Origin: Heterotrichella gracilis
Lineage: Eukaryota; Sar; Xanthophyceae; Tribonematales; Xanthonemataceae
Length of the DNA: 64,000 nucleotides
NCBI GenBank assembly: GCA_032358255.1
Contig: JAULBX010028493.1
Span: forward strand, 1 to 64,000
Reading direction: 5' to 3'
The notes below the pieces were generated by a model that saw nothing but the letters and a program-made list of their open reading frames with translations, was not told where the DNA came from and did no database searches. The position numbers and the translations under genes are program-made. Of the stretch, positions 1-59,400 are shown piece by piece; position 1 is the first letter of the stretch, and each line of letters begins with the position of its first letter.

Positions 1-1021
1 CGCGGCGGCGGCCGCGGCGGCGCCCCCCGCCCCCCCCGCGCGCACGTGGAGGACGAGGAGGAGGGCCACTCCAGCGGCCTGCAGGTGGGTTTGGGAGGAG
101 GTAGTAGGGCTTGCCCTAGGGTTTTGTGGTGAGGGGGGGAATTTGGTAGCATAGGGCTTGCCCTGGGGTTTTGTGGCAGAGTGGGGTTCATGGTGGGGGA
201 TGACACCTTGCTCTACCAAAAGTGCACCTCCTGACACTCGCCGCAAGCTGCATGCTAGGACCTAGGCTAGTGTGTAGCCGCGTGCAAGGTGTTCACCCTG
301 CCGGTGCATCCTGGTTGTGCTCACACACCCCTTCCCCGCCTGTGCAGGTTGTTGTGCAGGGAATCCCCTGGGCCTACACCTGGAGGGAGCTGAAGGACCT
401 GTTTGGCGAGCTGGGCGAGGTGGCGCGGGCTGACGTGGTGTACGGCAAGGACGGGCGCAGCAGGGTGAGTGGCGGGGGTTGTGTCTAGGCTTTAGGGTTT
501 AGGGCTAGGTCTTGGGGTTTAGGCTCAGGGCTTGGGTGCTGATGGGGTGTACGGCAAGAAAGGGGGCAGCAGGGTAGGTTTAAGGGTTTGGGGCTTTGTT
601 TAGGGTTTGGGGCTAGGGTGCTGATGTGGTGTACAGCAAGGAAGGGCTCTGCAGGGCTGGTTTCAGGGTGAAGACTAGAGGCGAGAGCTATGCTTCATAT
701 GGATAGGCGTAGCAGGATTCGAGGCTAGATTCCCGATCAAATCGCGCATGGCCTCAACCTGAACCCTGGTAGGGGTTGTTGCATCGGCGCATCGCCGCTG
801 GTGCCTGACCAGCATGGATGCTGTGCTTGACATGGTGATGTGCACCCTTGGCTAATGAACGCCCCCATCTATTCCCCACATGAACCCCGACACCCTTGCT
901 GCAGGGCTACGGCACTGTGCGCTTTGAGACCCAGGCCTCCGCCGACGCCGCCATTGAGAAGTACCACGGCACCGACCTGGAGGGCCGCACCCTCACTGTC
1001 AAGCTGGACAAGTACGCGTAA
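1..1021 (+). CDS. RRM RNA-binding protein, 3' part (hnRNP M / Gbp2-like)
   Basis: Partial gene whose 5' end lies before the window. Three exons read in one frame: 1-84, 348-464 and 905-1021, with GT-AG introns, all in phase 0, stop TAA at 1019-1021. The first exon ends an RGG-rich, acidic linker (RGGGRGG, then EDEEE). The other two encode one complete RRM: RNP2-like VVVQGIPWAYTW, then RNP1-like GYGTVRFE, and a C-terminal strand LTVKLDKYA that ends the protein. The 'G-x-PW-x-Y-x-W-xx-LKDLF' opening resembles RRMs of hnRNP M and yeast Gbp2/Hrb1, so a nuclear mRNA-binding role is inferred. Both introns carry TTTAGGG-like repeats, and intron 2 holds two degraded copies of the end of exon 2. The RRM is clear; the exact orthologue is not. 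Confidence 0.85.
435..655 (+). repeat. Tandem copies of exon 2 tail plus donor, in RRM gene intron
   Basis: The end of exon 2 (435-464, containing GTGTACGGCAAGGACGGGC and ending AGG before GTGAGT at 465) is repeated in the intron at about 544-573, followed by GTAGGT, and at about 621-654, more decayed. The gaps are filled with TTTAGGG/TTTGGGG-like repeats. All copies keep the AGG|GT-type junction or a near match. This is read directly from the sequence. Confidence 0.85.
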
Positions 1022-1739
1022 AGTGTGCAGCATTGGACCCTGGGCTAGCTGCTTTGGGCGGGCCCCCGCTGGCTAGCTAGATTGCTGGCTGCAGCGGTGT
1101 GGAGCCACGAGCTTGGCCAAGTGTTGCTTGACAGTGTGTGGCCTGCCATAGATGGCTGGTCATGCGGGCCACTGGCGCAGTGGTGTGGTTGTGTACGGTT
1201 GAGGGCAATGCCATCAGGCGGCGGGCGGATGTGAAGCCGCCCGGATGCGCGATTGTGACTGCAGACGGTTTTTGGCCCCTTCTACCTGACGCTCAGAGTT
1301 TTGTCCCCCCCCCCGGTTGTAGCAAGGTTTGACCCAAATCTGATGGGCCAAGTGCGATGCAGCTGTGATTTGTGTCGTGCGGCAGGTGCATAGGTTTTCA
1401 AGGGTGCAATTGAGTCGGGCGGTAGTTTCTAGTCTGTGCCTGACTGATGCGTAGTGCCGCTTAGCTTTGCTTCTCTGCATCGTGCGTTGCGCTGCCTTTG
1501 TGTCTTTCAAGACGTTATCTATTGATCTGCCTCACAAGTGGCTGCTTGAGCACGCTTTTGCAGCCAGTTCACTCTGCCTGTCTGTAACTGAGAAGAGTAT
1601 TTGCCAATCATTTATGCCAGGCGATCTGCCATGATGGTGATGATGATCAGCGCAGCTCGCACTCTAAAAAGGAGAAAACCTTGTGCGCAACGTCAGTTGC
1701 TGCCGCAATGCCTGGGCTGATTGGCAGTAATTTAATTTT
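1022..1739. other. 3' flank and spacer, no gene seen
   Basis: About 0.7 kb downstream of the RRM gene. Short open frames exist on both strands but none has a recognisable motif or a consistent splice model. It probably holds the 3' UTR and then spacer up to the retroelement fragment. Confidence 0.5.
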
Positions 1740-2625
1740 TTGCCAGCCCGCCTCCCCCTTGCCCTTTATGCCGTCTTCCAGATGGCATTGCCCACTGTCT
1801 TGGATCATGCAAACACCCCGAGATCCATGCCCTTATCATCGCCAGGCACGGCAACCTTGCTCACTCCATCTCCACTACCATAGGGAGTTCCAAAAATGGC
1901 AATTGCCTTCTGTTCACAGATGCAGAAACTCACCCGCCCCGTTACACGCAGCTACCAATCTGGCTAGTGCCCCCTCAGCACCAGACCACCAAGCCTGATA
2001 TTGTCATGATCACCAATGCTGACAAAAATGATCTGCATACTCGGACCACAGCCCTGTCCCAAGCCCGCCGCAAGGACCACCACATTCAACTCCTAGAGGT
2101 CAAGTGCCCCAATACATTTGGCATTCATCGCACAGTTGTTGGAGCACTCCGAGTGCTTGAACCAGCACACAGGCCTGGGGCCCTGGCCACCCATCTCCGA
2201 CCTGTTGGCCTGGCTACCCACCTTAGATACGCTGGCTGGAGAGTAACCTGCCATGCACTATTTATTACCAACACTGGCATTGTCCCAGTTTCTATGTTCG
2301 AAGCCTTGACTGCTATAGGCTTAGCCCCACGTGTGATTGCCAACCTAATTCCTGAGTTGCAACTCCTTGCTATTCAAGGCTCCTATGCTGTGTACACTAA
2401 ACGCCAAACCCTTCTGCATGCCATGCCTGCGGGCATTGGCTAATTACTTGACCAGCCGTTCTGGCTGGTGTGGTGCCCTGGTGCGAGCCAGTGGCCCCCT
2501 AACTACGCCTCTGTGCGTTCCCTTTCTTTCTTTCTTCTTCTAATTACTGCCATGATGCCCGCCAGTCAGTCACTGTGCCATCATGCACATTTAATTTATG
2601 ATTTGTGATTTGTGATTTGTGACAA
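1740..2625 (+). mobile_element. 5'-truncated non-LTR retrotransposon fragment
   Basis: The frame ending at the stop 2441-2443 can be read back to about 1740, just after an in-frame TAA. It begins with the zinc-binding cluster found at the end of many protist and algal LINE-type polyproteins: C-P-L-C, then H-C-L-G-S-C-K-H-P-E, then ARHGNLAHSI. A segment with PDIVMI and LLEVKCPNTFG follows, like the restriction-endonuclease-like or DUF-type tail of these elements. There is no reverse transcriptase core in the window and no start codon at the edge, so this is a dead 3' remnant. The presumed 3' end carries a pyrimidine-rich stretch and a (TGATTTG)3-like microsatellite at about 2594-2622, as in LINEs with microsatellite tails. 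The clade is not determined. Confidence 0.7.
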
Positions 2626-4077
2626 GGTTTTCAAAACAAATTGTAAATTACCGGTTATTAACACAAGGTGGCTGGAAATAATTATCCTGGCGGCTAACTG
2701 GATATTAATACTAAGAATTTCCGCCGTTGAAGAGCCCCTATCAGTCTTTCTTTCTACAGCGCCTGACTTGGGCATTATTCTACCGTCACAGTGACTGGCT
2801 ATGGTCTACAGGTGGCCAATTGGCACATGAAATGGAAGCCAATTGCCACTTCTTTTTCTATTAAGAAGCAATTATTCCAAGGCTTAGTGCACAAATCTGC
2901 CCTAGTACGAAAAAGCAACCTTGGACCCAGGTTGACCTCAAAACTCACAGCCAGAGCGGGAAATGCAGTAACGCACAGATGCATGCTATCCACTGCCATA
3001 CACTACCCTGCCCACAAATTGTAGTAACTGTCTTGCACGAAAGCAGACTCTTGAGGCACGGTGAATCATTGCTGCGTGCTAGGACTCCCTCTAGGAAAAT
3101 GGCTGCCAAGGGTTGAGATGCATACACACCCCGACCACAAACCACATGTACAGCGCACTTTCTCTACCTCTGTGACATGTCCCCCCATCTGCCTAAGAAC
3201 TCTGAATCACAAACCCGATACCTTGTGTGCCATTGCATTCCAGATTACGCTTGAAAGATACGGTAGCTACCAGAACTCTAACAGTCTCACTACATTGCCA
3301 GTGCTTGGCTTCACAGTTATACTAACAAATAAGAAATTACCAAAACATTGTGGGTGGATGCATGAATTGTAGAATCGCTTGCGAGCGAGGCACAGATGCT
3401 CAAAACATGCAGTGCCTGCACATGATTCAAATAAAATTGATTTGCCAACCCATTTGCAAGCATGCCGAATTAAAATCCTAATCTCAGGGGCAAACCATCA
3501 CTAATCCTGTCGCAAGAAGGAGCAAGTGGCGGGAGATCACAACATAAAAATCTAGCAAAATTACCGGCTCGACAGCCTGTAGTCACCCATTTCATGCAGT
3601 GCTCCTAAAAACGGTGTAGGCGAAGCTGCATCTGCAACAATACCTTCTAGAGCGGCAGACGTGGCAACAAACTGGCGACCACAACTGCACCACTATAGTA
3701 CTCTCACTAAGCTGTAACATCTACAACGTAGTACACGAAACTGTCGACTAGGCGCAAATTCCAAGCCACATCAATGCATCTGCCACAGGAAACAACCTAC
3801 CGGCTGGGAGCCTATGATAGCTGTGCGACTTGCCAGTGACACATTGACCCAGGGTGCACTTATTGTTTGCCCTGCAACCTGTGGTTCACAGATGGGACAT
3901 ACCACATGGCCAATATTCCCAATGAGAGCCAAAGGTCACCCAACCTGGACTCCTGAGCACCAGCGGCCCACCACACAACAAGCTGACATCATCAGATCCT
4001 GTGGTGGGCCGCTGTCAATCCAGCCCCTGCTGACATCCTTGCCCATGCAGCAACTCCCCCGCACAGCCTGCCCCTCC
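2626..4077. other. AT-richer intergenic stretch, no gene seen
   Basis: About 1.45 kb between the retroelement tail and the 3' end of the next minus-strand gene. Small open frames occur (for example 2791-3024 and 3061-3372 on plus) but show no motif, no convincing splice pairs and no repeat structure. The part next to 4078 should include the 3' UTR of the minus-strand gene. Confidence 0.45.
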
Positions 4078-6537
4078 TCACACCTCCATCTTCACAGCAG
4101 CTCCAGCCTGCCGGGCAGCACCAGCCTTTGGATATGCAGCGCCACCAGAGCGCCTGCGGCCTGGCCATGACCGCTGGCCACCGCTCCTGCCTGGCGCCTG
4201 GGCCACAACCCCCGTCAGGGCGCGCACGCCGCCTGGCAGCGCACCTCCAGGCGGGCCGAGGCTGCCCTGTGGCGCAGCACCAGCAGGGGCTGCTGCAGAT
4301 GCGGTGGCTTGCATCCAGGTAGGCGGGGCTGCAAAGGGGGCAAAGCGGGGGGGCAGCAACAGCCCTGGGGAGCCACCGGGTGGACCCTGGCCAGGGCACA
4401 GGGCTGCACCTCCCTCAGCCGGGCCCACCATGTAGGTGAACGGGCTCCTCCTGCCTCCCACCCCCTCGCGCACCAGGCGCTCCTCGATCTTGAGCCTCCT
4501 GCCACACGTGGGGGCATGCGCCAAGTCAACATGCTGACAGTGGTATGATCGGCTGACATTGAGTGATATTGCTTGATATTGATCATAATCTGATGGCACT
4601 CACTCCCTGTCCACACACGCTGGCATGCATGGTTTTTTGCGCCTTGCAACCATTTTGAACATCTCACAATTACACATTTCACCATAACAACGGCATTGGC
4701 AGGTTGTAGATAGCAATGTCACATATGTGAGCTTGGCATCAATTTCTGCTCGTTAGGCGTATGCGGATAGAACAGGACAGCCATTTTTCTTGCCACCAAA
4801 TTGTCCCACCCAGGGTTCTAGAACAAAGTGTAGGATGATGTAACCCACCTGAGTGCCTTGCTGGTGTCCGGTGTGTTCCCCATGATCTGGCGGATCTCGG
4901 CCTCCTTTACATTAGTCCTCTCACCAATGTACTCAATGATTGCGTTGGCCAGCTTCTCGATACGGGTGCCTCCATGCTGCACACGCAATGTGGACAGCGT
5001 GTCAGCTGCACACTGATATAACTAATTAAGCACATGGCATTCAACGCAATTTGTTTACAAAAGGCAATATACTAGCTCCCTCGTCAATGAGCGGCTTGTA
5101 ACATGCCATGCCAACAGGCCTCAGGAGGTCAACATGCATTATCATGATCTGTTGACAAACCCTAATAAGGGTTTAGAAAGTGCAGGCGGCCATGGCAGGC
5201 TCGGCACTTATTTCCCCCAGGGATGACCACATCCTGGTACCATCCAGGAAGCCAAGGACCTGGCTGCCTGGTCAGGTGGTACTTTCACTCCTGCACACCT
5301 TGCGAGTTCCTCCCGCTTTCTTCTCCTTGGGCTTGGGGATTGCCTCGGCGCCGTCCTCGGATGCTGCCCTTGCAGTACTGGTCCGAGTCCCCATCCTGGC
5401 TACCGGTGACGCAGCCAGCTCCTGCAGTTGGGCGGCTGACACCGTGCTGGTGGGCACGAAGGCTGAGCCGCTGTTGTGCACCAGGAGCGTGAAGGAGGCC
5501 GACTCTGAAGATAACAATAAATGATTTGTTGTTGATCCATTTATTGATAGATCAATAGAGTGATTTGTGACAGGTAGGAGAGTACACGGATAGGAGTACA
5601 CTCTGACAGATAGGGAAGTGCAATTTGTCATTGGTGCGAGGGCATTGATTGAGAAAGGGATAAGGGTTGGAAGGGTGGCAGCAGGCATTGATCATTCCCT
5701 GCAGTGCCCCTACCATTATCTGCGTCTGTCTGGCCCTGGGCACCCCTGTGCAGCCTGTCAAGCTCCTCCAAGGGGCCATCTCCAAACCGTGCTGGTCGCT
5801 GCATCCACAGGATGCTGTCAGCCTTAGATTGAGGGAGGCAATTGCAATGCCGTGGGATGCAGTGATCACAGGGGATCGCTTGCCGCTCTTTGCATGCATC
5901 CGATGCAAAGATTTAATATTCAGCTACAACTGGTTTGTGCGACTGTGTCCCTTTGATGCCAACGATTTGCCGCAGTCAGCAATGCCCATCAAGGGGCAGT
6001 TTGCCAAAGTATGAATGTCATTGTGACACTGGTTTCTTGCTGTCAAATTATTTTATTTTAAATTCAGAAAAAATGTTCATTTTTAAAATAAGGTTAAGGT
6101 GTTACAATAATTGTAATACCTAGTGCATATGAGCACGCACACATCGTGACTCACACAAGTAGTATCACAGGGTGCTGATTGCCTTCACACACATGTTAAA
6201 TGAATTGCTTAGACATAAAACTGTCAGGCAATCATTGGCAATGCCTGTGTCAGTCAGTGAGTCAGGAATGGCACGATCAAGAAGTCAACACCTATGCCAT
6301 CCACTTGCACAAAATTTGATGTCAGGATGTCAAGGCCGCACCTTGAGGTTCCTAACCGGGCGGTCACTGTCAACGTGTTGTGGAAGATGGCCTGAGGTGG
6401 TGGTGAAAGACAACAGAGGCTGTGCGTCTATTGGGTCACCTACCCCAGTGCTTCTCCTGCCTGCACCATTTGGGCGCCTCCCCAGTCCAGCTGCTATTGC
6501 CACCCCCTGGAGAGGGGACTTGGGCAGAGTCCTCTGA

Positions 6538-6574
<37 letters not shown>

Positions 6575-13837: not shown

Positions 13838-15321
13838 ATGGCAGCCGTGCTGGCGTGTGCTCGACAGCTACTGTTGCAACAGAGTCGGGGTGTAACGAAC
13901 AATGGAAAAGCACTGGGAGCTTTGTATCACTGCGCAAGGGTGTGTGTGCGACGTGTGCTCGCCTGCGTAGTCCTGCATGCATATGCATGCACAACACGGG
14001 GTGCAAGTTTCCGGAACCAAATGATTGTTCGAGACTGTAATGAACACATAACAACGATCATCAAGTGTAATACTAACGTGTATGTATATGTCGTGCAACT
14101 CAGGAAAAGGTGGAAAGCAGCAGGGCATTCAGCAGTGAAACAGCCCAGGTGAACTTGACCTCCTTGAGTCACCCACCTTGCCTAAATTGATTCCACCACT
14201 CGTTGGAGGTATTACACCGGCTGTGCAGTGCGCGTTTTTTGCTGCACTCAGTGACGGTCCCCCATGGGCCTGGCATGCCCACATGCAAGGCCTTGCATAC
14301 AGAGTAGTCTGGTCAGGTAGCGGAAAGGTGACTCTACGGTTGCCTGTCTTGTTAGCCACACAGGCAGCTTTTGAGTCGTCTTGAGCTACCACACCAGACT
14401 ATTATGGATGCATGGCTCTTTCATGCGGGTACTGCATACACACCTGCGCTTGGTCCGCAACTGCACACACTCCTTTGCATCAACTTGGCTTATATTACAT
14501 GTGGGTGGCAGGTGGGACGCCTGAACCACGTGGCAGTGGCTGTGCCTGACCTGCAGGCAGCAGCGGACAGCTACAGGGAGGTGCTGGGGGCAAAGGTGAG
14601 GGTTTAGGGTTTTAGGGTGTAGGGTGTTTGCACACATGGTTATGTAGGGTGGAGTGTGGAGAGAGTATGTGGTGGATCACGGGGGGAGTGCATATGCGGG
14701 TTGATGAATCCTAAACCCTAAACCTTAAAACCCTTTGGTACCAGGTCAGCAGTCCCCAGGCGCTGCCCGAGCACGGCGTGACGGTTGTGTTTGTGGACCT
14801 GGGCAACACAAAGATTGAGCTGCTGGAGCCGCTGGGGGAGCAGTCGCCCATAGCCAAGTTCCTGCAGCGCAACCCTGCTGGAGGGCTGCACCATGTGTGC
14901 CTGGAGGTGAGTGAGTGGTGTAGGGGTGGGCGAGTGGGTGGTGTGTGTGGATGGTGTGTGGGTGGTGTGTGAATGTGTGGGATAGTGAGTGTGGATAAGT
15001 GGGACCCTTGGTCGTACCGTTCTCACACCTGGCGTACCTTTCATATCCCCATTCAAAATCACCTTTTATCCCCAGGTGCTTGACTGGGCTTCACCCTGCA
15101 TGCCTGCCCCAGCAATTGATCCACCAAAAAATTCCATCCCACTTCGCACCATTTTCCATCCCCAGGTGCCCGACATTGGCGCGTCCCTGCGCGCCTTGTC
15201 CCAGCGCATGCGTGTGCTTGACAAAGAACCTAAGCTAGGGGCGCATGGCAACCCCGTGGTGTTCCTGCACCCCAAGGACAACCAAGGGGTGCTAATGGAG
15301 CTGGAGGAGGTGAAACCATAA
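13838..15321 (+). CDS. MCEE: Methylmalonyl-CoA epimerase, mitochondrial
   Basis: Four exons, all phase 0: 13838-13939, 14512-14595, 14745-14906, 15166-15321; 167 aa. The product interconverts (R)- and (S)-methylmalonyl-CoA between propionyl-CoA carboxylase and methylmalonyl-CoA mutase. Residues 1-34 (MAAVLACARQLLLQQSRG and on) are an Arg/Leu/Gln-rich leader without acids, fitting mitochondrial import. Residues 36-163 form one VOC (glyoxalase-fold) domain with GRLNHVAVAVPDL, TKIELLEP, GGLHHVCLE and GVLMELEE. The metal-ligand positions H40, H111 or H112 and E161 are present. The length is normal for the family. The donor of exon 2 runs straight into GGGTTTAGGG repeats, and CCTAAACCC repeats precede exon 3. 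The acceptor of exon 4 has an upstream look-alike near 15073-15077. The start was chosen as the only ATG giving a presequence in frame with the VOC domain. Confidence 0.9.
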
Positions 15322-16316: not shown

Positions 16317-19300
16317 TCAGAAGATGTAGTCCGGTACCTTGAGCAGGAATCGCGCGCATTGCACGTCAAACTCCCCCCCTGTGGGCTGCGCCAGGGTGCC
16401 CTCCACAAACCCAAACTCGCCCTCCATGCTGCCCCCATCCTGCTCCTGGTGCGTGCAGCTCTGGTACACAAACTCCTGGCCGCCTGCGCAACGGGAAAAT
16501 AAATGCATTTAAAATCCAAGTATATAATGCCACGCAGAAATGCATTTAACATCCACTGTGTATGAAAAAGTAAAAAAATCATTATAAACATCACAGATAA
16601 GCATCAGTAAGGAATGCGCCCTCCTCTTCCTGGAGCGCACAGCATTTATACACATCTCATGGGTGCATTTGCCTGCTCAATGGGTTGATGAGACCAAGAA
16701 CATATGCTGTGCTGCCCACTGTCAGAGATGGGTGGTGTGGTGTGGCACAGGATGATTGTGCACCATGAACAGTAGCTACAGGAATTGCCAGGGGCATTGC
16801 TGATTATATCACTATGGTAATCGGGAATATGTACATCCAACTGGATCCCAATGATGGAACCTGAAGCCCTTCCTCAGCCACCCCACACCGCACCTGGTGT
16901 CAGGATCGGGTACTTGCCCACCACCGCATCCCCAGACACCTCGCTCCCAACCTCCCCCTGCACATGAGCAAAAAATGAGACAAGCATTCAAAGTAATCCA
17001 ACATTGATGTGCTTGATTCAAGGGATCTTCACTGGAACTGAAACCAAGAACAGCATTGCAGCCTATTCTTGAACAAGGCAAGGCAGGAAAAGAGAAGGAC
17101 ATGATCCTCGCCTGTGCATTGCCCCCTTAACCTGCCCCTCAGCTGCACCATACACCCTACCTGCGCGTCACGCATCACCCAGTGCCTGTTCCTCAGCTGC
17201 ACTCTACACCCTACACCCTACGTCCTACACCCTACCTGTGCGTTGCGCATCACCCAGTGCCTGTTCCTTAGCTGCAACCCACACCCTACACCGTACCTGC
17301 GCGTCGTGCATCACCCAGTGCCTGTTCCTCAGCTGCACTCTACACCCTACACCCTACGCCCTACGCCCTGCACCCTACCTGTGCGTTGCGCATCACCCAG
17401 TGCCTGTTCCTCAGCTGCACCTTGGTGATCGGGCGGAAGGGGCCCGCGGTGGCTGGCCAGTGGCGCAGCTGGTCCTCAGGGGGGAGCAGGGAGAAGCGCA
17501 CGCTGGAGAAGGTGACGGTGCGTTAGGTTTTAGGCTCTGTGAGGTAGGGTATTGCGGTTGCCGGCCTTCCACTGCCTTCAGTTGAGCTGACTGCTAACTT
17601 GACTGCATTGCTGGAACGCATGCCAACCAACTAACCTACTACTACCGTATTAAGGGTTTCCCATCAAATAGGGTGTGCCTCAACCCTGGACATCTTCTAA
17701 TGTAGCCAATGGTGCTGCCGACACCCGCACGCAACACCAGGCCACCTGCCACCTCCCCGGTGCGTGCAGCGGCTTTCCACCGCTAAAACACCGCGCCCAC
17801 TCCGGATGTCACCTAACTTGGCCACCACTTTGCACCCACCTGTAGGCGAAGAACAGGCGCCTCTCGGGGTGCGCCTCAACCCTGGACATCTCCGGAATGA
17901 ACAGGGGGGCGGCCGTCACCCGCACGCCACGTGTCACCGCCTCTGAGCGCGTGGGGCCCCTGGCGGGGTACAGGCAGATGCCCAGGCTGTCTGGCTCCTG
18001 CTCATCCAGGCGCTCCACACTGATTTCACCCCTTGTGAGGGCTGAGGCGTAGGCCTCCACCCAGCGCAGGAGGCCATCGGTGGCGCCTGCGGGAGGCGAA
18101 AGATGCACGTGGAAAAAGGAAAGGGAAAGGGAAAAGGAAATGAGTGGGGCCTGTGGAAGGTAAGGGGAGGGGTGTCTAGCCAGAATTAGGGTGGGGTGGT
18201 GCGCGTGGGAAAAGTTATAGAACAAAAGTTGGCCACCTGATAAAGGAAAATGGAAAACAGTGGTGCGCGTGGAAAAAGGAAAAGAATATAGGGTGTTGCG
18301 GGCGACTGCCCACAGCTAGCTGTAGTATGGGATGCAGCGAAGAATAATGGATTCTGCACAACCATCTGAAGCCCAATTGGCGGCGTTTGCAGAGGCGTAG
18401 GAAGGTAGATGTGGAGGCAGGGCGAGGTAAGGCACTGGCTGCTTTCTTAGGGGAGTCAAACAAATTCCGTGTGTGCGGTGTGGCAAACCCCTGCTCTGTA
18501 AATCCCTTTTCTTGTGACCGTGCTCGCAATTGTACTTGAGGTGATTACAATCGTAATTGTGTGAACATCCTAGCTCCCAGTGGCGCTCCATGAGTACATG
18601 TTGAGGACTCCCTTTCTTTAGTTTCCAAGGCTTTTAGGGGTTTTTGTGCCCTAAGCATACTTCGCATGATAATCTACAACCGTTATGACGAGGTTGACTC
18701 ATTACGGTACTTGTGATCACTCACCTGGGTTTTGTGTGTCGGTCGGCACTGCAGTCATCATCCCTTCTTGAGACCGGGTCCCGTCCCGGAATTGAGGCAA
18801 CCCAGACGGGCTACGGGGCAGGGCACACCACTCAGAAGTATGTTGTACAAGAATAAATATAATATATACTTTATGATGATGTATAACTATGCAATGTATG
18901 ATGATTGCTAGAGATGAAAAAACATGTTATTCTATATACCATAGGTATTACTACTCGAGATAAAGCAGTGTACGACTTACGATTTATGTGGATCAGTGGC
19001 AACTCCAAGTGGGTGGCGGGTCAATGAACACCATTGATGGGGGATATTGTAGGACCAGGGGAATATCATATGTATGTTTCCACCTGCAAGCATTTACCTT
19101 TCAGTGTGAACAAGAATGGGGGTAACTTTGCTTTTGCAGAGGGATGGGGGGGCCATACCACAACGCTTATCACAGTAGCGGTATCCTGGTAATCCTTTCT
19201 CCCTCTTCAAATCCAACCTCGTACTGGAGATGGAGAGGAAGAGGGACAAGAAATCCCAGGATACCACTACTGTGACAAGCGTTGTGGTATGCCCCCCCCC

Positions 19301-22100
19301 CCCATCCCTTTGCAAATGCAAAGCACCCCATTGTAGTTCCCACTGAAACGTAACCGCTGGCCGGTGGAGAACTACGGTGGTGATGATGTAGTCCTCATAA
19401 TGCTTCATGCTTTTATTATAGACTTGTGGGTCGAGCGACATGCGTGCCAATCCGTACCTAGGAGGTCATGTGTGAACAACATGCCTGCCCAGGGGTTTAG
19501 GGTTTTAAAGTACTATGGCGAGGCGATACCAAAAGGGGAACTCAGGGACAGTCTGTTTGTGACTCCCATGCGAGCTGAGTATGGTTCTTACACCTTTTCA
19601 GGGATTTATGGCGCCCAGTCCACAAACCTGAGACGCATGGGTTTTAACCATGCAGTGAAGAATTAGGGTTTTTAGGGTTTTGTGGCACCCACCAGTCGAC
19701 CACCATGAGGCGCCCTAGATCGAACGACGCTGAGATGAGCACGCGTTCAGTCTCTGCAGCCCAGGCGGCTGTCGTGTACAGGGTGTCTGTCCACTTGGCG
19801 AGCCTGGCCAGGGGGAGCATGCGCATGCTGACGAGGTGGTTGTAGAAGGAATAGCTGCAACACGGGGGGGAACCCTTAGAGCTCAAAGAACTAGGGTTGC
19901 GCGGTACAGGGAGGGCGTGCGCATGCTGACACTGTGGTTTTATACGGGTCTCTGCAAGAGGGGGGAGCTAATAGGGTTTAGCGTTTAGGATGAAGGGTGA
20001 CGGAGAGCATGCGTATGCAGACCCGGCGTTATTAAAGAATACCAAGATAGATGCAAAAGAACGATGCAGATTATGCGGCACAGTGTAATACTATAGGCAA
20101 CTTGACTGTGCAGCATATGGGCACTGCATTCAGAGATAAGGGAATGGCCACCCTCCAAAACCGACTCTTCGCCCTAAACCGAAACCCTTCAAGGTTGCCT
20201 TCTACCGTTCCATGGCTTGTTCTCAACCCATCAACGACATTTGAGACCAGGCGCACATAAAGAAATGTGAAGAATTGAGGATGGAGTAGGATGGAAGACG
20301 TGAGGTGTGGTGAAACTACCAACATTTATATACTCAAAACATTGAATGTATAATCTAAACAATGCAAACCTATCCTATTATAATTTATGGGCAATGTATT
20401 CATTCAATCGCTTCAATGCAGATAATCACCTCACAAATTAGGGATTATCAAAGACAGCTACCCCTGTTCACATCTGTGCGCACCCGCCAAACACCCCGTG
20501 GTACAGCGACGGCATGTTGGCGCTCACAAGATGCTGAAAGCCAGCTGGTCGGTCAACGCGCTGGTCAAACGCCAGCGATTGGCCGTCGTGCACTCGGTAC
20601 AGTGCGCGCATGGCAGCGGGGAAAGTGACCCCCAGCTTGAATTCAGCAGCGTCCAGCTCAGCTTCACTTGCGCCTGGCCTGTGTGGGAAAAACGTGGGAC
20701 GTGGGTGTTAACCCAACCTGCTGTTGGCTACAACTTTTGTGGCTTAAAATAAGATTATACCCAAGAATTTGCTTGTATCACGGGGGTGCTGCCCTGTAAG
20801 CGAGGGTGCTGCTTGACGCTGCTCTGGTTGAGTGACCAGGCAGGGAGGGGGAGGCACGGTGGGAATGCAACGAGCGGGGAGGGGTTGATGGGTGCGGCAA
20901 AGCATGCAGAATATACCGCATGGCTGCCAGCGTATACCTGGTGCAGGACTTTCCTCTAGCTAGTGCATCGTGGTGCAAAGGGTGCTGCGTGAAGGTACCC
21001 AGTCCGCCCAAAGGCAGGTGCTGGCAGTCGGCCGCATCGAGACAGATGGTGGGAAGGCCAATGGTCACCGTGCACGGTTGAATTGACCCAGCAGGGTGCT
21101 AAATCGCAGAAGACACGCCAGTCAGCATCCACCGCCAGTACCGACGACGAACGAGGAGAATACCCTACCTTAGGGACCGAGCCACCGGCGGGATGTGCTG
21201 CCTGGTCCACTCCTCTATCTTCCTCCAGCACCACACCGCACGCATACCCAGCTCCCCATACATGCCCAGCTCCCGCTGGAAGGCGCAATACGCAGCGCGA
21301 AAGGAGGGGAGGGCATCCCCCGCAAGGGACACTGGGCTGTGCAGGCCCCATTTCTGCCCAAGCAAGAACGGATTTTTTTTAAGAAAGTACATTATTCAAA
21401 ACAAACGGCGTGGGAAAATGAGAAATTGAGGGTTCACCAGGGAGAGCAATAGGGTAGGTGAAAACCCCTTACCAGTACAGGGTAGACCCTAACGGAGGAA
21501 GGTTTCTCGCACCTTGTCACACAGCTGCTTCCACAGCCGGTCGTCTGCGGCGATGAGATCGTTGAAGCTCTTCTGGGTGCAGCACAGGCGAGCCAGGTCC
21601 TTGCCTGCGAGGAAGCTGCAGCAGGACGGGGGTGCATATGCATTAGAGTGAGTAGAGATACATCAGCGCCTCCGAGGTTTTTACGCAGCACAGGGACATA
21701 TGGTACAGGGTAAGCATCCAGGCAGCAGATTATGAGCGTTTGAGGTCGCTTTGGGCGACGGTGGCTATGTGAGGGTGGCATGGTGGGAACATGCTGTGTG
21801 CAAACTTTCCTTTCGAGGCTGCAATGGCCCCCGGCAGTAGCGGACAGTGTCATCGGCAAACAAGGCACTGGCGAGCGCAGCATATACAACAGCCGCTTGT
21901 AACAGAACGCCAGAATACGCACAGCAGCAGGTGGCGCGAGTTGCAGCAACACGCCAGGTTGCATGCAATTATTTTTCCTTGCATGCATGCATGCATGCAT
22001 GCAACGTCTTGGGTTCCGCAAGAGTAGACGCGCTGTCGACGCACCTGAAGACGTGCACCAGACTGTTCGGTTCCAGGTCGTTGATGCATGTGGTTGACAT
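16317..22100 (-). CDS. SKIP16: F-box protein, SKIP16-like (F-box + SMI1/KNR4 + ApaG)
   Basis: Ten exons on minus, phases consistent: 22100-22045, 21615-21513, 21353-21169, 20678-20484, 19854-19693, 18810-18725, 18086-17840, 17502-17379, 16957-16894, 16483-16317; 462 aa. Arabidopsis SKIP16 has the same domain order and similar length. Residues about 7-50 are the F-box (INDLEPNSLVHVF, LARLCCTQKSFNDL, WKQLC), which should bind SKP1 in an SCF ubiquitin ligase. Residues about 115-235 are an SMI1/KNR4 domain (ALYRVHDGQ, GYSFYNHLV, LPLARLAKW). Residues about 310-462 are an ApaG/DUF525 beta-sandwich (GVRVTAAPLFIPEMS, RHWVMRNAQ, VVGKYPILTPG, EFVYQSCT, PDYIF at the end). The substrate is unknown. Intron 5 contains a 256-nt fold-back, intron 8 three extra copies of the exon 8 tail, and the terminal exon is duplicated downstream. 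The start is the first ATG ahead of the F-box. Confidence 0.93.
17161..17414 (-). repeat. Four tandem copies of a 36-nt exon tail with splice sites
   Basis: On the minus strand the last 36 nt of exon 8 (17414-17379, LRNRHWVMRNAQ) recur at 17332-17297 (RHWVMHDAQ), 17271-17236 (RHWVMRNAQ) and 17196-17161 (RHWVMRDAQ). Each extra copy is preceded by TGCAG and followed by CAG|GTAGGG or CAG|GTACGG. It therefore looks like a 12-codon phase-0 micro-exon with both splice sites. The gaps are (GTAGGGT)n-type telomere-like repeats; the spacing is 61-82 bp. Confidence 0.92.
19096..19351. repeat. 256-nt intronic fold-back (long inverted repeat)
   Basis: The arms 19096-19189 and 19256-19351 are inverted copies with few mismatches (core CATACCACAACGCTT / AAGCGTTGTGGTATG and GTATCCTGG / CCAGGATAC). 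The 66-nt centre pairs further (TCTCCCTCTTC / GAAGAGGGA). A 12-C run at 19292-19303 faces a 7-G run on the other arm. It sits inside intron 5 (19692-18811) of the F-box gene. It could be a MITE-like fold-back element or a long hairpin RNA source. The open frame covering it on minus is not coding. Confidence 0.85.
21979..22004. repeat. (GCAT)n palindromic tetranucleotide run
   Basis: Perfectly self-complementary GCATGC run (TTGCATGC repeated to GCATGCAA) in intron 1 of the F-box gene. Shorter GCATGC runs are frequent elsewhere in the window, for example near 13029 and 52697. Confidence 0.9.
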
Positions 22101-39400: not shown

Positions 39401-42400
39401 TGCAGCTGAGCAATGTCCTTCTGCTTCTCCCTCAACTGCTCTTGGAGAGAGATCACCAGCACCTCTGCAGTGTCAGCGTGCCGTTTGGCTTTGTTAAAAT
39501 CTGCCTACAGAAGTTACAGAAAGGATGGCTTTGTTAGCACACTGTGGCCCATGTGTCATCATCATGCTAGAGAGGGCAAGATGAAAATAATTCAATACAA
39601 CATTGTGCCTTGAACGCTCTGCGCAGACATGATAGCTTATTTAATAAGGTATTAACTCCTCTTGTCCCCGTTCAACTACCGCAGTGTTACCATCATGTGC
39701 CATACGCAAACCACACGACAATGTATTGACCCTTTGATCACGAGAGGTGGTGCATGGTGCTGCCCAGCTTGACAGACATTTCCTCCCGACCAAGCAACAT
39801 GATGCAGATTTTTGGCATTACATGGCATGGCGCAAGAGCTGCCCTGGTTCACCCATTACAAAGCTTGAGATCCTGCAGAGATTTGGGCCGTTGCACGGGC
39901 ATATGCCGTCATTCCTACCTGCATGTGCGCAACAGTTTCAGCCAGTAGATGCTTCTCCTGCTTCAGCTGCATGTGATCTTCCTGCAGCTGCCGGTTCTGC
40001 ATGCGCATCTGCTCAAGCTGCAAGCTCAAGGAATTGCTCTCGGCTGCTGCAGCCGCTGACGCCTGTTTGATGAGCCTGATCTTTGACTGCAGCTCCGTGG
40101 CAACCTCTTCCTGTCTCTGCACCCGCTGCTCCTGCTCCATGCGCCTCTCCACCTCCGCCTACGCATGATGCAGCAGCAGGCGTCATGTCTCAAAATATGT
40201 TTGAGGAAATTAGAATATATACTGTGGAAAATGAAATACGTTGCAAAGCTATAAGTTATATATTGCAACGCGCATTGAGCTGTCAACAAACTCAAAACAG
40301 GAACAACTGCCAATTGCCTCCCGTCTTGCACGTGAGAGGCTCAACAACTTTCCATGTGTGTTGTGTTTGGCAACGCTGCATGTCCATGGCATAGCATTGC
40401 CTAAGCCTAGCCTGCCAATTGTACGTGCAAAGATATTGCCCTATGCGGCTGCCATTCAGGATTGCTCACCTGCCAGTCGCTAGTGGTTTTTGCAAGCTGC
40501 CTCTCCAAATCCTTCAGCCGCTGGCGCTCTTTGAAGACATTCATTGCCATCACTCGGTTCTGCTGGTCAGAGCGATCTGCATCGCCTCGTGCACTGCGTT
40601 GAAGCTCCAGTAGCTCAGCCTCTGCTGACCTGCAGAGTACATTGTTCACGTTTTTGACCTCTGTTCCTGAGTGATTTCCTGTGTTTGTCATCACTGTGCG
40701 CGCATTTGTCCTCCCATCAGCCTGTTCTACTCTGCAGGGTAGCCTGTGCTACTGTGCAGGGTACTGTATGGTGACAGTTAGCGAGAAAGCGTAATGTTAG
40801 TAGTATATCAGCTGACGCAGATGGGGATTCACAGATCCTCTTCATGCACAGCACCTCTTGCAGCATGCATTTCAGGTGCCTACGTTGGGTCCCCACATTC
40901 CTAAACCCTAAAACCCTAACCATACCTGAGCTGATTCTTCAGGTGCCTGCGTTGGCTCCTCAGATCCTCAGACTGCCCCTGTACCTCCTGGAGGCTGCCC
41001 TCATATGCGATGTCTGACCGCAGCTCAAGCAGCTGGAAGCCACAAATCACATGCCTGTTATGGTCTGCATACCTATTTTGGTCGTTCTGGCGAGAAATCA
41101 TAAATTTATTTAAAGGGGGTTTTCTGAAGCCTTTCGATTTAGCACTACGAGTCTTTAAGCCGCACCTGGAAGCAATTTCCCCACAAGGTGCGCAGCAGCT
41201 GTGAGCGATCATGGCATTCCAGCTCAACCTGCCTGCAGATTTCTTCAAAGGCGCGGCCATATATCCAGAGCACCGCATCTGTCATTTCGCCCACGGTCTG
41301 CACCAGTCGTATTGCATGTGGTTGGAGAAGTGTTTGACTATAAGTTTAAATGCCTTTCAAATAATCTATTACAGCAATCCAGCAATAGAGTGGATGCGAC
41401 TCGATTTACAAAAAAAAATGATTAAAGCCTAATTAAATTGCTGATATTCACATTGACAAGACATGCTGCATGTGCAACAGTGCACTATGCCATGCACTGC
41501 TCACTTTGCATGATTTCTCAGCATCCACCGTCTCTGGGATGCGCTCAGCAACCTGCTGCAGCATGTCACGCAGCCAGCACTCCAGCAGCGTTACATCCTC
41601 CCGCCTGGTTGGCTTTAAGCTGGGGAAAATCGATTTCTCGACCCTGCATTACGCCCAGAACCTCATTCAATGCAGAATAGCCAGAGAACCAGATTGTGAC
41701 AGGATATTTATGCATTGTAGCGTTCTGGATGATGTGTCCACCACTGTGCTGGATGATATGCCCTGGAGGGCTTCCATCCTGTGCTACTCGCAAGCAAATT
41801 CAGGGTCACCAGTGGACTTTGAATGCGTGTGTTATGAGTGGCTCCATTGGGTGCACCACATCTGCCTTGGTTAGGGCCACAATGAAATTAGTAGATAATG
41901 AACCCAGTAAAAGTCTCCTGTGAAGCGACCTAGACAAATTTTGCTCGCACCCAGTCTGTGTCACATCAGTCTTGAAGCGGTCATCTGGTAAACTTAGTGG
42001 CACAGACTCAGTGTACAGCACGATATTGCGCACCCAACCAAGTCTATCCAATCCACCCTGCAGAATTCACCACACAAAGTGATATGGTGAACACAAAAGC
42101 CATTTTCGGTGATTTTGCCCGCAGTACTTGACTCATGGACTGAAAGATTGCCAGTAGTTTTGGCGATGGTTTTACCAAGATAAACACTGTACCTCGATAG
42201 CGCCCCAGTTTGGCCCTCCAAAGAAAAGGTCTTTAGCTGTACTGGAGTGTTTGACTGGTGTAGAAATTCCCGCATTCCTGCTGGGCATCTTGGCAGGCAC
42301 TGGTAGCCCCTCAGAGCTTGCTTGCAGGCCAGCGCTGAATCCCAATGGCACACCACGAGGCGACCTTGGCGGGGAGGGCGAGGGTTCAGTAGCTCCTGGG

Positions 42401-53480: not shown

Positions 53481-56400
53481 ATGTCATATGGCGTGGTGGC
53501 CCCGGGTACAAGCTTGCTGGATGGCACTGCGGTCAAACGGCCAGAGGTGCTGTATGCGGGGCACACAGGCGGGCCTGCCAGGTCAAACAGCCTCAACCCT
53601 GACACACAGAGACCGGTGGGTTACAGCATGACAGCAACGGTGCTTGTGTGCGCCTGCCACACAACCATGCTCTAGGCAATGATCACAAATATGTTCCGAG
53701 TCTGCCATTGGCAGCGTTGGGCAATGGGGGCGTAAACCTGAATGCACTTGGCATGCCTTTCACTTGCAGCCCGCCATACCACTGCACTGTATCACACTCT
53801 GTGGCTTGACGGCTCCCTCCAAAATCGGATAGGCATCACAACGGGACCCGGAGGCGTCTCCGCTGCTGGGCCACGCCACCAAGCGCTTTGAGCCCAAGCT
53901 GCAGTCCATCGAGAGCCTGGACTATGAGAACTACGACAACACTGTGTTCAAAGCAGAGGATGCGCAGCAGACGCAGGTGGACTCGGTGCTGCACGGGCTC
54001 CTGCGCTGGCTGCTGTGCCTGGTCATCGGTGAGCGGGGCTGTAGGGTTTAGGGTTTGTGGTGTAGGGTTTAGGGTCAAGGTTAAAAGGAGGTGGACGCGG
54101 TGCTGCACGGGCTCCTGCGCTGGCGGCTGTGCCTAGTCATTGGTGCGGGGCTGTAGGGTTTAGGGTTTGTGGTGTAGGGTTAAGGGTCAAGGTCAAGACC
54201 AGGGTGCTGGTTTGGCCAACGCATCATTGTATCTCATTGCTGCACAGCCCGTCCCTTAATAACCAATCAAGTAAGAGACTCGCGGCGGCAATATGAGCAA
54301 TGCACGAAACCCTTAACCCTGAACACATCCACATTGTGCGTGCCCCCACCGCAGGGGTCACCGTTGCTCTCACTGCCATGTTTGTCAATATCAGCGTCGA
54401 GAACCTATATGGCTGGAAGTTTGGCATCACCAGCTACGTGATCAAGCGCTCCATTGTGGGGGCGTGGTTTGTGTACTCTGCGTTTGATTGCTCCCTGGTG
54501 GTTGGCGCCGCGATCCTGGTCACCTACTACGCGCCTGCGGCTGCCGGGTCAGGCATTGCTGATGTCAAGGTAATGCAGTGATTATGCATGCGTTCCTCCG
54601 TAATGATACCCCACATACCTGATGCAAAATGGTGATGCATTGCTGGCGACATTGGCGGGCCAGTGGCAGTTGCATTTGCCAACCGCCGTGCAGTACAAGG
54701 GCCAGTGGCAAAGACATCATGCGCTCAGCGGCGATTGTCATGTCACTGTGTCTGTGTTGTGCAATGGCGTGTACAGTACAATGTGCCCCATGCCCACATC
54801 CGCGGCGGCAATTTTGATGCGCACATCGCACATCTGCGTACCTCCTCACCAGTGTCTGACAAGCTGCGCATGGTGCCCTTTCACAGGCCTACCTGAATGG
54901 CATCGACGTGCCGGGGGTGCTGCTCCCCGAGACCCTGGTGGCCAAGGCGCTGGGTGCAGTGGGGTCGGTGGCTGGCGGGCTGGCGGTGGGGAAGGAGGGA
55001 CCTTTCGTGCACATAGGTGAGTGCCTTGGCGCTCTGCATTTGTGCACATCATTTTGTTGCTTTATTCTCGGTATCTCTGTTCTTGTACATCTGACTATAT
55101 TGGTACGCATATGGGGCAAGATGACAATGACAAAATTAAATAGTAATCAAATTAATTATTGTTCTCTCGTGCATATTGTGAGCGGCTGGGGCGCTATTCC
55201 CCACCATTGGCATAGTGCTGCTTGGCACTTGGCACCCAATACATTGCATGTGGGGATGCTCAGCAAGCTTGACGCATCCCAGGTGCATGGGTGTAGCGCA
55301 TGGGGCGGGCAAGAGCTGCAGGCATTACCCAGCATGGGATCAGTACTGGGGCAGGAAGGAATGGGTAGGCAGGATGCATGGTTGACGAGCTTTGCATGAT
55401 GCCTGTCCTAATCACCACCAGTCCTGAGCACAGTGCCTGGATATAAAGTTTTACGCAGTGGCATGGATAAAGCGCCCCGCTGCGCCCAAGCAAGGGGCCC
55501 ACACCGCTGCATGCACTACTCCCGACCACCTGCTCGCCCCACATGACTCCATGACCCCACCCCACCCCTCCGCAGGCGCCTGCATCGCGTCAGTCATGAC
55601 CGAGGGGGGGTTCAGCCGCCTGAAGCCAGGCTCCAAGTGGGCGCGCGTGTTCCGGGATGACAAGGAGCGGCGGGACTTTGTGTCGTGCGGCACCGCGGCG
55701 GGCGTGGCGGCGGCCTTCAGGTGGGTTGCAGAGCGATGAATGATTTTGCAGAATGATGAATGATTTTGCAGAATGAAGGATGATTTTGCAGAATGAAGAA
55801 CGAAGGAATGGTGGAGCCAACGTTTGGGACCCACGCACTGCATCTAGCGGCAATAAATCCTTCAAGGATGTTCACATTTTCATTTGGACCCTATAACTCC
55901 TTCAGATTTGTTGCAGCTAGCCTCCTTGAATCCCAACCGATATGCTCCCATCTGGGAGCAGCCGCGTAGCATCACATTATTTACTTTGCCGTACATAGCA
56001 ATGTATGGTCTTGGATGTATCACAAACATATGCACGGACAATCCAAGTCAATATTGAATGAAAAATTTGAAGAATGAAAATATTGTATGGTTGTGTTTAT
56101 GATATACTTATATTTCCTGTGGCTTGGCTGCAGGTCGCCTGTGGGTGGCGTGCTGTTTGCGCTGGAGGAAACCACCTCCTACTGGAGCAACAAGCTGCTG
56201 TGGAGAGCGTTCTTCACAACTGCAGTGGTGCGCATACCCACCTCACCGCCCTGCTTGTGCTTGTGCAGCCATGCGTAACGTCAGCAGGCGCCGCTCACAG
56301 CAACACCCATGCTGTGGTCAGTCTGTGTGCAATGCACTGCGCATTGCACCAGCTATGGCTGTTTCATATTGCACAGCAACAGCAGGTGAAGTGGCCATGT

Positions 56401-59400
56401 GGCAATGCACCTCGGCACTGCACCACCAAATGCTGTGGCCATGCGCACCCTATGCGTGCACTACATGCATCCCTAAATTCTGACCTCCATAGCAGGGCAG
56501 TGTACATGGCAGGGTACCTGACGCAAGACTAATCTTTTTCCCAATCACTCACGGCTCGGGTGGGACATGTGCAGGGCAGCGTGTTGATCAAGATGATGAT
56601 GAAGTGGTGCGGCAATGGGCGGTGCGGTGCATTCGGGCAGGCTGGTGGCTTCATCATCTTCAGCATCAAGGATGGGCAAGATGACTTTGAGTTCTTTGAG
56701 CTGTTCCCCATGGCGCTGCTGGGTAAACCCTAAACCCTACAACCCTAAGCAGGCGCTTCTAAGTTAGCCCCTGATTTTTTAGCTGTTCCCAATGGCGCTG
56801 CTTGGCAAAACCCTCGACCCTACAACCCTAAGCAGGCGTTCCTGGGTGAACGCATGACTTGCGCCACTGCTGGGTGAACGTTAAGGAGGCGCCGCTGAGT
56901 GAACCCCAATCCATTGGCTGTGAGTATTTTTAGCTATTCCCAATGACAAGCTGAATAAACCCTGTACCCTTATAACCTAGACACAATCCCACTAAACGCC
57001 ACATGCTGTATGGCAACTTAAACCCTACCAGTTGAGAAAAGCTCTAAATGAAATTCTATTGTGTGCAGGCTTCATGGGCGGCCTGCTTGGCTCCGCCTTC
57101 AACAGCTTCAACACAGCGCTGGCTGAGTGGCGGCGAGACTGGCTGTATGCCACACCCCACGTGCGCCGCGTGAAGGTCATGGAGGCGGCATGCATATCCA
57201 TCCTCACGTCCACGCTGGCATTTGGCATCCCCTTCTTCTTCGCATGCCAGCCGTGCCCGGCCAGGTAAGAATCAGCCAGTCACTTACATGCAAACAGCAA
57301 TTAGTGTGATACAGATTGGCTGTCTGGCTGCAACTTGCACATGGGGTCCCAAGCAGGGTCTATCTGGCACTGCTTACCACATTGGTGGTGACATAAAGGA
57401 ACCTGCTGGATTCGCCAAGCATTGTGGACAAATACGACTTCACACGTATGTACTTGTGTACTCCCCCTGGACTGGGGTGAGGCATACTCAAACATGCTAG
57501 TCTGGCTTAAAGTTGAAATGCACGCACTTAATTGCTTATCTACTCCCTTGACCCCTGCTGCCAGGAGCCAGGACTCGTGCCCACGCCCCACGCACTCTGG
57601 CAACTTTGTTGCCTTCCACTGCTCGCGCCCCAATGAGTACAACGACGCCGCAACCATCTTTTTCAACGGCCAGGACGACGCCATTCGCAACCTGTTCTCG
57701 GCAAACACGGAGCGGGAGTACACGGCGGGTGCGGCGATGGACCAGGGTTGTAGGGTCCTAGTTCAGGTTTAGGGTTCTAGGGTTCAGGCGCCTAGGGTTA
57801 AGGGGCCATAATTGCTACTGGCAACTGTTCCTGCCAAACACTGAGCGGGAGCGGGTGCAGCATTGAAGGGCAATTTAGGGTTTTGGGTGGAGGGTTTAGG
57901 GTTTGCATGCTTCGGCCACCTTGGAGCGGGAGTACACGGTGGGTGCGGCTGAAGGGCTAGAGTTTAGGTTTGACAACTGTCTGTGGATGCATTGCACTTG
58001 GGCACGCACATCACTGCACGATGCATGTTCTGTGTGTATGGGTGGTGGCATGGGCAGGATGGTGGTGGAGGTGCCTGTGGCAACAGCAGGTGATGCATCG
58101 CACCTAGGGCAGGCATGTGCCTGTATCTGAAAGTGTACGTGACAGCAGGAGCTTGACTGATGCACGCAGTGCTCCTGCATGTGTATGTGCATGTGCACAG
58201 ACAGTTGACAGGGAACCATGGCATGCCCTTGCTGTGCATCGGGACCCTACACCTTCTGCATGTGTATGCGGCACACATTACCCTGAAACCCTGGAGATCT
58301 TGCGGCGTATCATCCCCCCAACCTCACATCCTTACCCCCTCGCCCAGGCGCCCTCATGACCTACATGGTCGCATTCTACTCCTTGGCCCTGGCCATATCC
58401 GGCATCTCAGCATCAACCGGCCTCTTGGTGCCCTGCTTCACCCAATCCCTTGAACACCCAGTGATCAATCACGCCAGGAATTTGATCCTCCCCACAGAAT
58501 CTCATTTCAACAGAAACCCTTCCCACGCCCACCCAGGTGCCCTGGTCACCTACTTTGTTGTCTTCTACTCCCTGGCCCTGGTCACATACGGCATCTCAGC
58601 ACCAACCGGCCTCTTCGTGCCATGCATCCTGTGCGGCGCGTCTTATGGGCGCCTAGTAGGCATGCTCATGCGATCAACGTACCCTGATTCGGCCGTGGAC
58701 GAGGGGACCTATGCGCTCCTGGGTGCGGCTTCGTTCCTTGGCGGGTCCATGCGGATCAGTGTGTCGCTGTGCGTGATTTTGCTAGAGCTGACAGGGCATC
58801 TCACGCTGCTGCCGCTGATCATGCTGGTGCTGCTGGTGGCAAAGGTGGGTGGTGGGGGTTGGCAGTGTTATGGTGGGTGGTGGTCCATGCGGATCAGTGT
58901 GTCGCTGTGTGTGATTATGTTTGAGCTGACGGGGCACCTCACGCTGCTGCCGCTCATAATGCTGGTGCTGCTGGTGAGTGCATGTGGGTGGGGGAGAGCG
59001 TGTGGGGGGGATTGCGATGCTGGTGCTGCTGCTGGATAAGCTGGGTGGGTGGGGCGGCAGGGATGGGGTCGGCTGGAGGAATCATATGGTACCGTTTATA
59101 TCATTAACTCACCGCATGGAGGTAAAGCCTCTTTGGATCATCTCCAAATATTGCCAGCATCCAACGTCGCAGCTCCACAAAACTCTTGCTCTACTAAAAT
59201 CCTGTTCACCCTGGTACATGCCCCACAGGCTGCAAGTATATCGCCCTCAACCCTGACCCTAAAAACCCACCTGCCGCAGGCTGTGGGCGACTCCACCGGC
59301 GTCAGCTCCATCTACGACCTTGCCATGGTCACAAAGTCGCTGCCATACCTGGAGCCCACCGCCCCGCGTGCCATGCGCGCCATGACTGCGGGCGCGGTGT

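Follow-up and report, generated by a model that had tools for sequence, protein, structure and literature searches.

Direct copies of exon edges and telomere-type repeats at intron ends in the xanthophyte Heterotrichella gracilis

In several genes of a 64,000-nucleotide stretch of the Heterotrichella gracilis genome (positions 1 to 64,000 of contig JAULBX010028493.1, assembly GCA_032358255.1; hereinafter, the window), the end of an exon together with its 5' splice site (donor) recurs inside the following intron, close to repeats resembling the telomeric repeat TTTAGGG. Are such copies confined to a few genes, or are they a regular feature of intron ends in this genome and, if so, what produces them? 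The original prediction described six copied donors in four genes (RRM, F-box-like, coiled-coil and CLC), and all six are indeed present in the sequence. We found that exon edges are copied at both kinds of splice sites, at frequencies far above chance, and that, at donors, the copies are associated with telomere-type words. The reading we favor, with a probability of about one in two, is that exon edges beside telomere-like tracts are prone to duplication, and that copies spanning a splice site survive because they are spliced out, so that the introns lengthen.

For intron statistics, the window (contig C597; the assembly comprises 68.5 Mb in 903 contigs, and its 43 matches to the light-harvesting family point to a photosynthetic eukaryote) was combined with positions 1-200000 of contig C2, for a total of 264 kb from this one assembly. 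C2 was chosen as a long contig from the list of TTTAGGG-repeat matches; the 200-kb stretch itself was not picked for repeats. A small hidden Markov model gene finder, self-trained on these two sequences, yielded 45 coding models (at least 300 nt) with 339 introns of median length 316 nt. Because its donor model stops at intron position +6, the gene finder cannot produce enrichment deeper in the intron. The 232 introns of at least 120 nt, with both flanking exons at least 40 nt long, were considered testable: the last 60 nt of the exon were compared by alignment with at most 300 nt of the adjoining intron, a score of 16 or more was taken as a match, and exon tails re-paired with introns of other exons served as the control.

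Exon-tail copies were detected in the first 300 nt of 31 of the 232 introns, against 0.0 expected from the re-paired introns, as anticipated by the claim that copying exceeds that in shuffled intron-exon pairs. Copying at donors thus stands, and it is not confined to donors: in 22 of the 232 introns, the head of the next exon is copied into the last 300 nt of the intron, upstream of the acceptor (0.3 expected). With direct copies of both tails and heads above chance, this is local direct duplication across splice sites; at the same score, inverted copies were found in 0 of 232 introns at the donor side and 0 of 232 at the acceptor side. Exon tails also gave 20 matches to the last 300 nt of the intron, and exon heads 13 matches to the first 300 nt; the two 300-nt zones mostly overlap at these intron lengths. 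In C2 alone, which the original prediction did not cover, 26 of 180 introns contained tail copies and 19 head copies, compared to 5 and 3 of 52 in the window. Overall, 46 introns in 19 of the 45 genes carry a copy at one or both ends and, in line with the predicted lengthening, introns with a copy are longer than those without (median 396 vs 319 nt, p = 0.0045). Alignment of six pairs of paralogous introns in C2 showed gaps without a clear gain of an exon copy.

Telomere-type words crowd the ends of the introns. In the first 25 nt of introns, TTTAGGG occurs 1.3 times and CCCTAAA 1.2 times per kb, compared to 0.03 and 0 in exons, and the backward word GGGATTT is absent from the first 25 nt of the modelled introns. 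In the first 60 nt, telomeric 6-mers reach 12.1 per kb for the G strand and 9.9 for the C strand; the last 60 nt have 12.4 (C) and 2.4 (G), and the middle about 3; that is, these words are enriched approximately fourfold just inside donors in both orientations, and before acceptors on the C strand. Among the 20 same-letter necklaces, TTTAGGG takes the first rank in each of the three places of enrichment and the second rank in the remaining three. In genome-wide counts (overlapping matches included, the two words within 30 nt of each other), AGGTRRG is followed by TTTAGGG 2508 times, with 656 occurrences in the reverse order, and the corresponding numbers for CCCTAAA are 1296 and 301, and those for the control heptamer TTGATGG, 292 and 202. 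The TTTAGGG density near donors is therefore raised across the genome, as had been proposed. The claim of a TTTAGGG block at donors holds as far as presence is concerned, but CCCTAAA is nearly as common there (for example, at CLC donor 56723). CCCTAAA precedes TGCAGG 1984 times and follows it 1024 times, the latter count also taking in donors. Most of the tracts are short: in the first 100 nt of 258 introns, the longest perfect run is below one unit in 201 cases, one unit in 44, two in 10 and three in 3. Three consecutive TTTAGGG units are counted 834 times in the assembly (406 and 428, overlaps included, irrespective of the distance to contig ends), with 0 for the backward control. Among the matches listed, 5 pairs of tract-bearing donors lie 40-300 nt apart on the same strand among 91 donors, and 8 among 89 (0.4 and 0.2 expected). 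As a separate observation, relative to the middles of the 339 introns, there is a strong enrichment of GGGTGGG close to donors and of CCCACCC close to acceptors.

The strand composition bears on an explanation under which selection would maintain the tracts because they serve as signals for splicing, in the form of G-runs close to the donor and CCCTAA close to the acceptor, with the duplications a side effect. CCCTAA near an acceptor may resemble a pyrimidine- or branch-site-like signal. The position of CCCTAAA relative to TGCAGG is compatible with this possibility, and so is the finding that words other than the telomeric one are enriched as well, G-rich ones near donors and C-rich ones near acceptors. 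Against it stand the nearly equal frequencies of C-strand and G-strand words at donors and the lack of enrichment of other words of the same composition, so that we consider selection for splicing signals improbable. Such near parity at donors is not what would be expected of a signal consisting purely of sense-strand G-runs, nor of synthesis confined to a single orientation. The C-strand tracts at donors contradict a sense-strand G-run splicing enhancer as the sole cause, and an intron-looping hairpin between a G-strand tract at the 5' end and a C-strand tract at the 3' end was rejected as well, given that their co-occurrence is not significant (odds ratio 1.32, p = 0.54).

Tracts and copies tend to occur in the same introns. 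A telomeric word is present in the first 100 nt of 20 of the 31 introns with a tail copy, compared to 56 of the 201 without (odds ratio 4.7, p = 0.00013) and, for the G-strand word, these proportions are 14 of 31 and 31 of 201 (p = 0.0004). At acceptors, the C-strand word accompanies 10 of 22 head copies and is found in 45 of the 210 introns without one (p = 0.017). The proposed association between telomere-type repeats and exon copies is thus supported by the odds ratio, along with the genome-wide order counts. In 9 of the 31 cases, telomeric words are present both in the spacer between the two exon tails and after the copy, as expected if the tract was duplicated too, which suggests that, in some cases, the tract came first. 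Conversely, nearly pure telomeric spacers between exon-tail copies, at C2 donor 189655 (34 nt, CCCTAAA type) and window donor 40925 (23 nt), suggest insertion in other cases. Among the 22 acceptor copies, telomeric words occur in the spacer and upstream of the copy in 6, in the spacer only in 4, upstream only in 4 and in neither place in 8.

These spacers speak for the principal rival explanation, repair of staggered breaks at exon-intron junctions by telomerase or filler synthesis, whereby fill-in would duplicate the exon edge and telomeric repeats would be inserted between the copies. The occurrence of both tract orientations is compatible with such repair, and words confined to the spacer outnumber those found only after the copy (11 vs 2 of 31). 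Similar events have been invoked elsewhere: insertions of interstitial telomeric sequences (ITS) in the horse are described as break repair (PMC7215372, in the portion available), and the action of telomerase at transcription-linked breaks has been proposed for plant telo boxes (PMC3022908, likewise in part). A telomerase RNA-binding domain is encoded at contig C626, which proves nothing about a role of telomerase in exon-edge copying. However, telomeric words on both sides of the copy look as if the tract were older than the duplication, the copied blocks, at 30-60 nt and longer, appear long for staggered breaks, and many copies lack a telomeric spacer. Moreover, acceptors show no asymmetry (4 vs 4), and tracts are in any case more common near active donors, which alone could give the 11:2 skew. 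We regard this explanation as possible but doubtful.

At the level of individual loci, the following features of the window illustrate the pattern (coordinates, strand, feature):

348-464, plus strand: exon of the RRM gene; its 36-nt tail (429-464) is copied downstream, and the donor follows position 464
538-655, plus strand: intronic copies in the RRM gene at 538-573 and 620-655 (families D6 and D9), with TTTAGGG/TTGGGG-type spacers
14596-14625, plus strand: donor of the epimerase-like (glyoxalase-fold) gene with a TTTAGGG-type block, GTGAGGGTTTAGGGTTTTAGGG, without an exon copy
17146-17451, minus strand: exon tail and donor of the F-box-like gene in four units (family D1), spacing 75, 61 and 82 nt, with TAGGGTG-type spacers
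19809-19947, minus strand: head of an exon of the F-box-like gene copied upstream of acceptor 19854 (family D8)
40871-40965, minus strand: donor 40925 of the coiled-coil gene (a label taken from the original prediction); exon tail, 23-nt spacer GTATGGTTAGGGTTTTAGGGTTT and exon-tail copy (family D18)
53975-54203, plus strand: CLC donor 54029; exon tail and telomere-like block tandemly duplicated (families D10 and D11; period 112-114 nt, 90-92% identical)
56695-56860, plus strand: CLC donor 56723; exon tail and C-strand (CCCTAAA) block duplicated (families D13 and D15; period 82-83 nt)
57692-57949, plus strand: CLC donor 57729; copies of the exon tail starting at about 57825 and 57912 (families D14 and D20), with TTTAGGG-type spacers
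58343-58628, plus strand: acceptor side of a CLC exon; exon head 58532-58628 (the modelled exon starts at 58537), copied at 58343-58439 in the upstream intron (family D4, 82% identical over 97 nt)
58744-58976, plus strand: CLC exon tail 58744-58838 and copy 58882-58976 (family D2, 92% identical), without a telomere-like tract

Three of these loci are not among the 31 scored copies: the RRM and F-box-like donors, because one copy in the former gene and two in the latter were taken for small exons by the gene finder, and the CLC pair at 58744-58838 and 58882-58976, because the model read through it. In general, the copies match along the whole exon tail, and the match weakens either right at the donor or over the next 60 nt or so of intron; at CLC donor 54029 and C2 donor 4808, the homology is as long as the period, that is, these are full tandem duplications. 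Donor-side copies start 20-192 nt inside the introns. As predicted, many of them represent extra potential donors: in 21 of the 31 copies, a GT is located no more than 3 nt from the projected donor (exactly at that position in 15), compared to 39% for random intron positions, and an AG is present at 17 of the 22 acceptor copies. In the RRM gene, the first copy retains the GT (GTAGGT), and the second has GC; every unit of the F-box-like gene contains CAG followed by GTAGGGTG or GTACGGTG across the splice junction.

With the copies omitted, conserved protein sequence is continuous at three CLC donors and one RRM donor. The RRM_1 domain, identified with Pfam, crosses the copy-bearing junction in the joined protein. 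The predicted CLC product, for which one other exon end was placed by hand, aligns to CLC-a without a break at residues 110, 354 and 474, which correspond to the three copy-bearing donors; at donor 57729, the exon ends at GGCGG/GTGCGG (slash, junction), upstream of a conspicuous CAG/GGTTGTAGGG, leaving the protein continuous with CLC-a. The closest solved structure is that of a CLC-a (8iab), presumably the Arabidopsis protein. In four C2 genes, the best Pfam stretch listed takes in 8 of the 18 copy-bearing junctions considered and leaves 10 outside. A search of the assembly with the CLC region, the only region searched in this way, found neither a second haplotype nor another full copy.

The F-box label itself is weak (Pfam F-box-like, E = 0.0015, below the family cut-off). 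At 17151-17502 (minus strand), the exon tail is read in frame by the model together with two of the three additional units, repeating AQLRNRHWVM, with GT...AG spacers in between, so that these units could be mini-exons rather than parts of an intron. This arrangement speaks for the model invoked in the original prediction, namely, intron gain by tandem duplication of an exon segment containing AGGT. That model also gains from the frequent presence of AG/GT in the copies. However, it places the exon-tail copy flush against the acceptor, which allows an in-register comparison of exon tails with intron tails. Among 277 introns, there was a single match of at least 13 of 21 positions (0.35 expected), which was also the only one at 12 or more (0.7 expected). 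The mean identity was slightly raised (5.66 vs 5.25 of 21), a point in favor of intron gain, and the in-register exon-head version was not raised (0 at 12 or more, mean 4.41 vs 4.57). With strong in-register matches at the chance level and the donor-side copies internal to longer introns, the claim of AGGT-type intron gain is not supported, and we consider this model very improbable. The known cases of intron gain by tandem duplication (PMC4974935, PMC3443670; available portions) similarly involve a second donor or acceptor and an unchanged protein; here, in contrast, the duplication spans an existing splice site, the intron lengthens, and the flush in-register signature is not in excess. A family of introners was rejected as well: these elements similarly add intron sequence by a recurrent process (PMC9860276, in the portion available), but an all-against-all comparison of introns revealed no common element. 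After telomere masking, only 19 of the 339 introns share at least 40 nt with another intron, and the largest group, of 12, comes partly from paralogous genes.

The placement of the duplications was assessed with 60-nt queries compared to 150 nt in the 65 introns of at least 420 nt. Matches were obtained for 11 of 130 exon edges, 10 of 130 first or last 60-nt segments of introns, 4 of 130 segments at 60-120 nt and 2 of 260 at 120-240 nt from the intron ends; relative to the latter zone, the excess is significant for both exon edges (Fisher test, p = 0.0002) and intron edges (p = 0.0004). The two intron zones were compared with each other because copies of constrained exon DNA stay recognizable longer, a bias that this comparison avoids. 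In a looser set, the proportions were 28/205 for exon tails, 12/214 for exon heads and 11/183 each for intron positions +20 to +80 and -80 to -20, compared to 2/128 for +100 to +160, 3/128 for -160 to -100, 2/52 for exon interiors and 5/244 for intergenic DNA (1.3 expected).

These figures fit the favored reading of duplication-prone exon edges. Approximately 60 nt on either side of each splice site would be prone to local direct duplication, with the copies about 50-220 nt apart, and short interstitial telomere-type tracts just inside the splice sites, in either orientation, would raise the odds of such events, slippage or break repair at telomere-like DNA being a possible underlying process. 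When the duplicated unit spans a donor or an acceptor, the original exon edge could still be used, and the extra piece of exon, along with its decoy site, would be removed with the intron. Since the extra copy would be spliced out, the duplications would be tolerated, and introns would lengthen stepwise.

Several results weigh against this reading. The gene models are ab initio predictions. The C-strand word alone is not associated with donor copies (7/31 vs 33/201, p = 0.44) and, when either strand is counted, tracts and copies are weakly linked at acceptors (10/22 vs 56/210, p = 0.08). The excess of words found in the spacer only over those found after the copy only is also compatible with insertion at the duplication event. 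In 9 of the 31 cases at donors, both the spacer and the sequence following the copy lack a telomeric 6-mer, so that the tract is not required. Some copies, such as that at C2 donor 148455, where near-identical exon tails are separated by an unrelated spacer and the homology ends close to the donor, are not simple tandem duplications. Furthermore, by plain coverage with duplicated windows (at least 24 of 30 positions identical), the excess at exon edges is modest: 6.9%, compared to 4.2% in exon interiors, 4.3% in intergenic DNA, 3.4% at intron edges and 2.9% in intron interiors. For near-identical pairs (30 of 30), which represent a handful of events, exon edges (0.61%) show no excess over intergenic DNA (0.88%), with 0.50% in exon interiors, 0.33% at intron edges and 0.12% in intron interiors. 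Intron interiors are the poorest in duplicated windows at both cut-offs. These coverage figures slightly lowered our confidence. The readings considered here overlap, and the probabilities attached to them need not sum to one.

The local duplications in intergenic DNA lend some weight to a more prosaic view, ordinary minisatellite turnover, with this genome being one more case, after green algae, of introns with repeats at their ends, here with a telomere-like unit. Tandem repeats are reported to concentrate toward both ends of introns, most strongly in Chlamydomonas and Volvox (PMC3887541), much as they do here; in the available part of that paper, however, the abundant motifs are the dinucleotides GT/AC, the string "telomer" occurs 0 times, and exon-edge copying is not mentioned, whereas here the telomere word and exon copies are involved. 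Turnover alone would leave unexplained both the exon sequence in the copied unit at the two kinds of splice sites and the top rank of the telomere word, and we find it rather unlikely as the full explanation.

Other comparisons, also based on the available portions of the cited papers, place the telomere-type tracts in context. Short ITS at sites of break repair in mammals are likewise short telomeric blocks, sometimes with a duplicated flank; at horse ITS loci, duplication alone was reported at 3 of 66. ITS occur in human introns at the random rate (31%), whereas here the tracts are concentrated within about 60 nt of splice sites (PMC7215372). Telo boxes of Arabidopsis and rice share the repeat unit, non-random placement and a model of telomerase acting at breaks, but favor 5' untranslated regions instead of intron ends; in introns, they number 7367 against 8293 expected in rice and are lower also in Arabidopsis, 3829 against 3945 if the table row is assigned as we presume (PMC3022908). 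Interstitial telomeric repeats are present in Chlamydomonas, where their role is described as unknown (PMC6549138), and the accessible text on Trebouxia contains nothing on intron ends (PMC12712428). Judging by titles and the opening lines of abstracts, we found no report in the open-licence literature in which interstitial telomere repeats are linked with splice sites or with copying of exon edges.

Several additional features of these loci deserve mention. The epimerase-like (glyoxalase-fold) donor at 14596 has the telomere-like block and no exon-tail copy, just as originally described; CCTAAACCCTAAACC is located at 14710-14724, close to the acceptor of the same intron, and a GGTGTGTGGGT minisatellite occupies 14906-14971, at the donor of the next intron. 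A CLC intron contains, at 57469-57544, a dispersed repeat of about 75 bp with matches of 75-83% identity in many contigs, five of which lie within 11 nt of the contig start (C693, C528, C388, C94 and C683), and a 68-nt inverted repeat at 60103-60170 in a CLC intron is 91% identical to its own reverse complement. An open frame of 235 amino acids at 1736-2443, with a CPLC...C stretch, resembles a retroelement fragment by eye. A gene predicted on the minus strand of C2 (model c2_-_28177, at about 165-172 kb) encodes two LysR modules, with PF00126 and PF03466 each matching in two stretches; this would be a bacterial-type regulator in a eukaryote, and the gene is interrupted by introns that carry exon-tail copies.

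The growth of introns and the origin of new splice sites are old questions for which few active systems are available. In this alga, about one in five testable introns carries a recognizable exon-edge copy, so that the process can be measured by strain comparison. The link with telomere-type DNA of either orientation points to a cause that can be tested, namely, that DNA at transcribed exon edges is fragile or accessible to telomerase. Tentatively, in this lineage, telomere repeats might even be inserted preferentially at exon-intron junctions, with duplication of the exon edge coupled to the insertion; under this view, telomerase or break repair at the junctions would go on rewriting intron ends and supplying genes with decoy splice sites.

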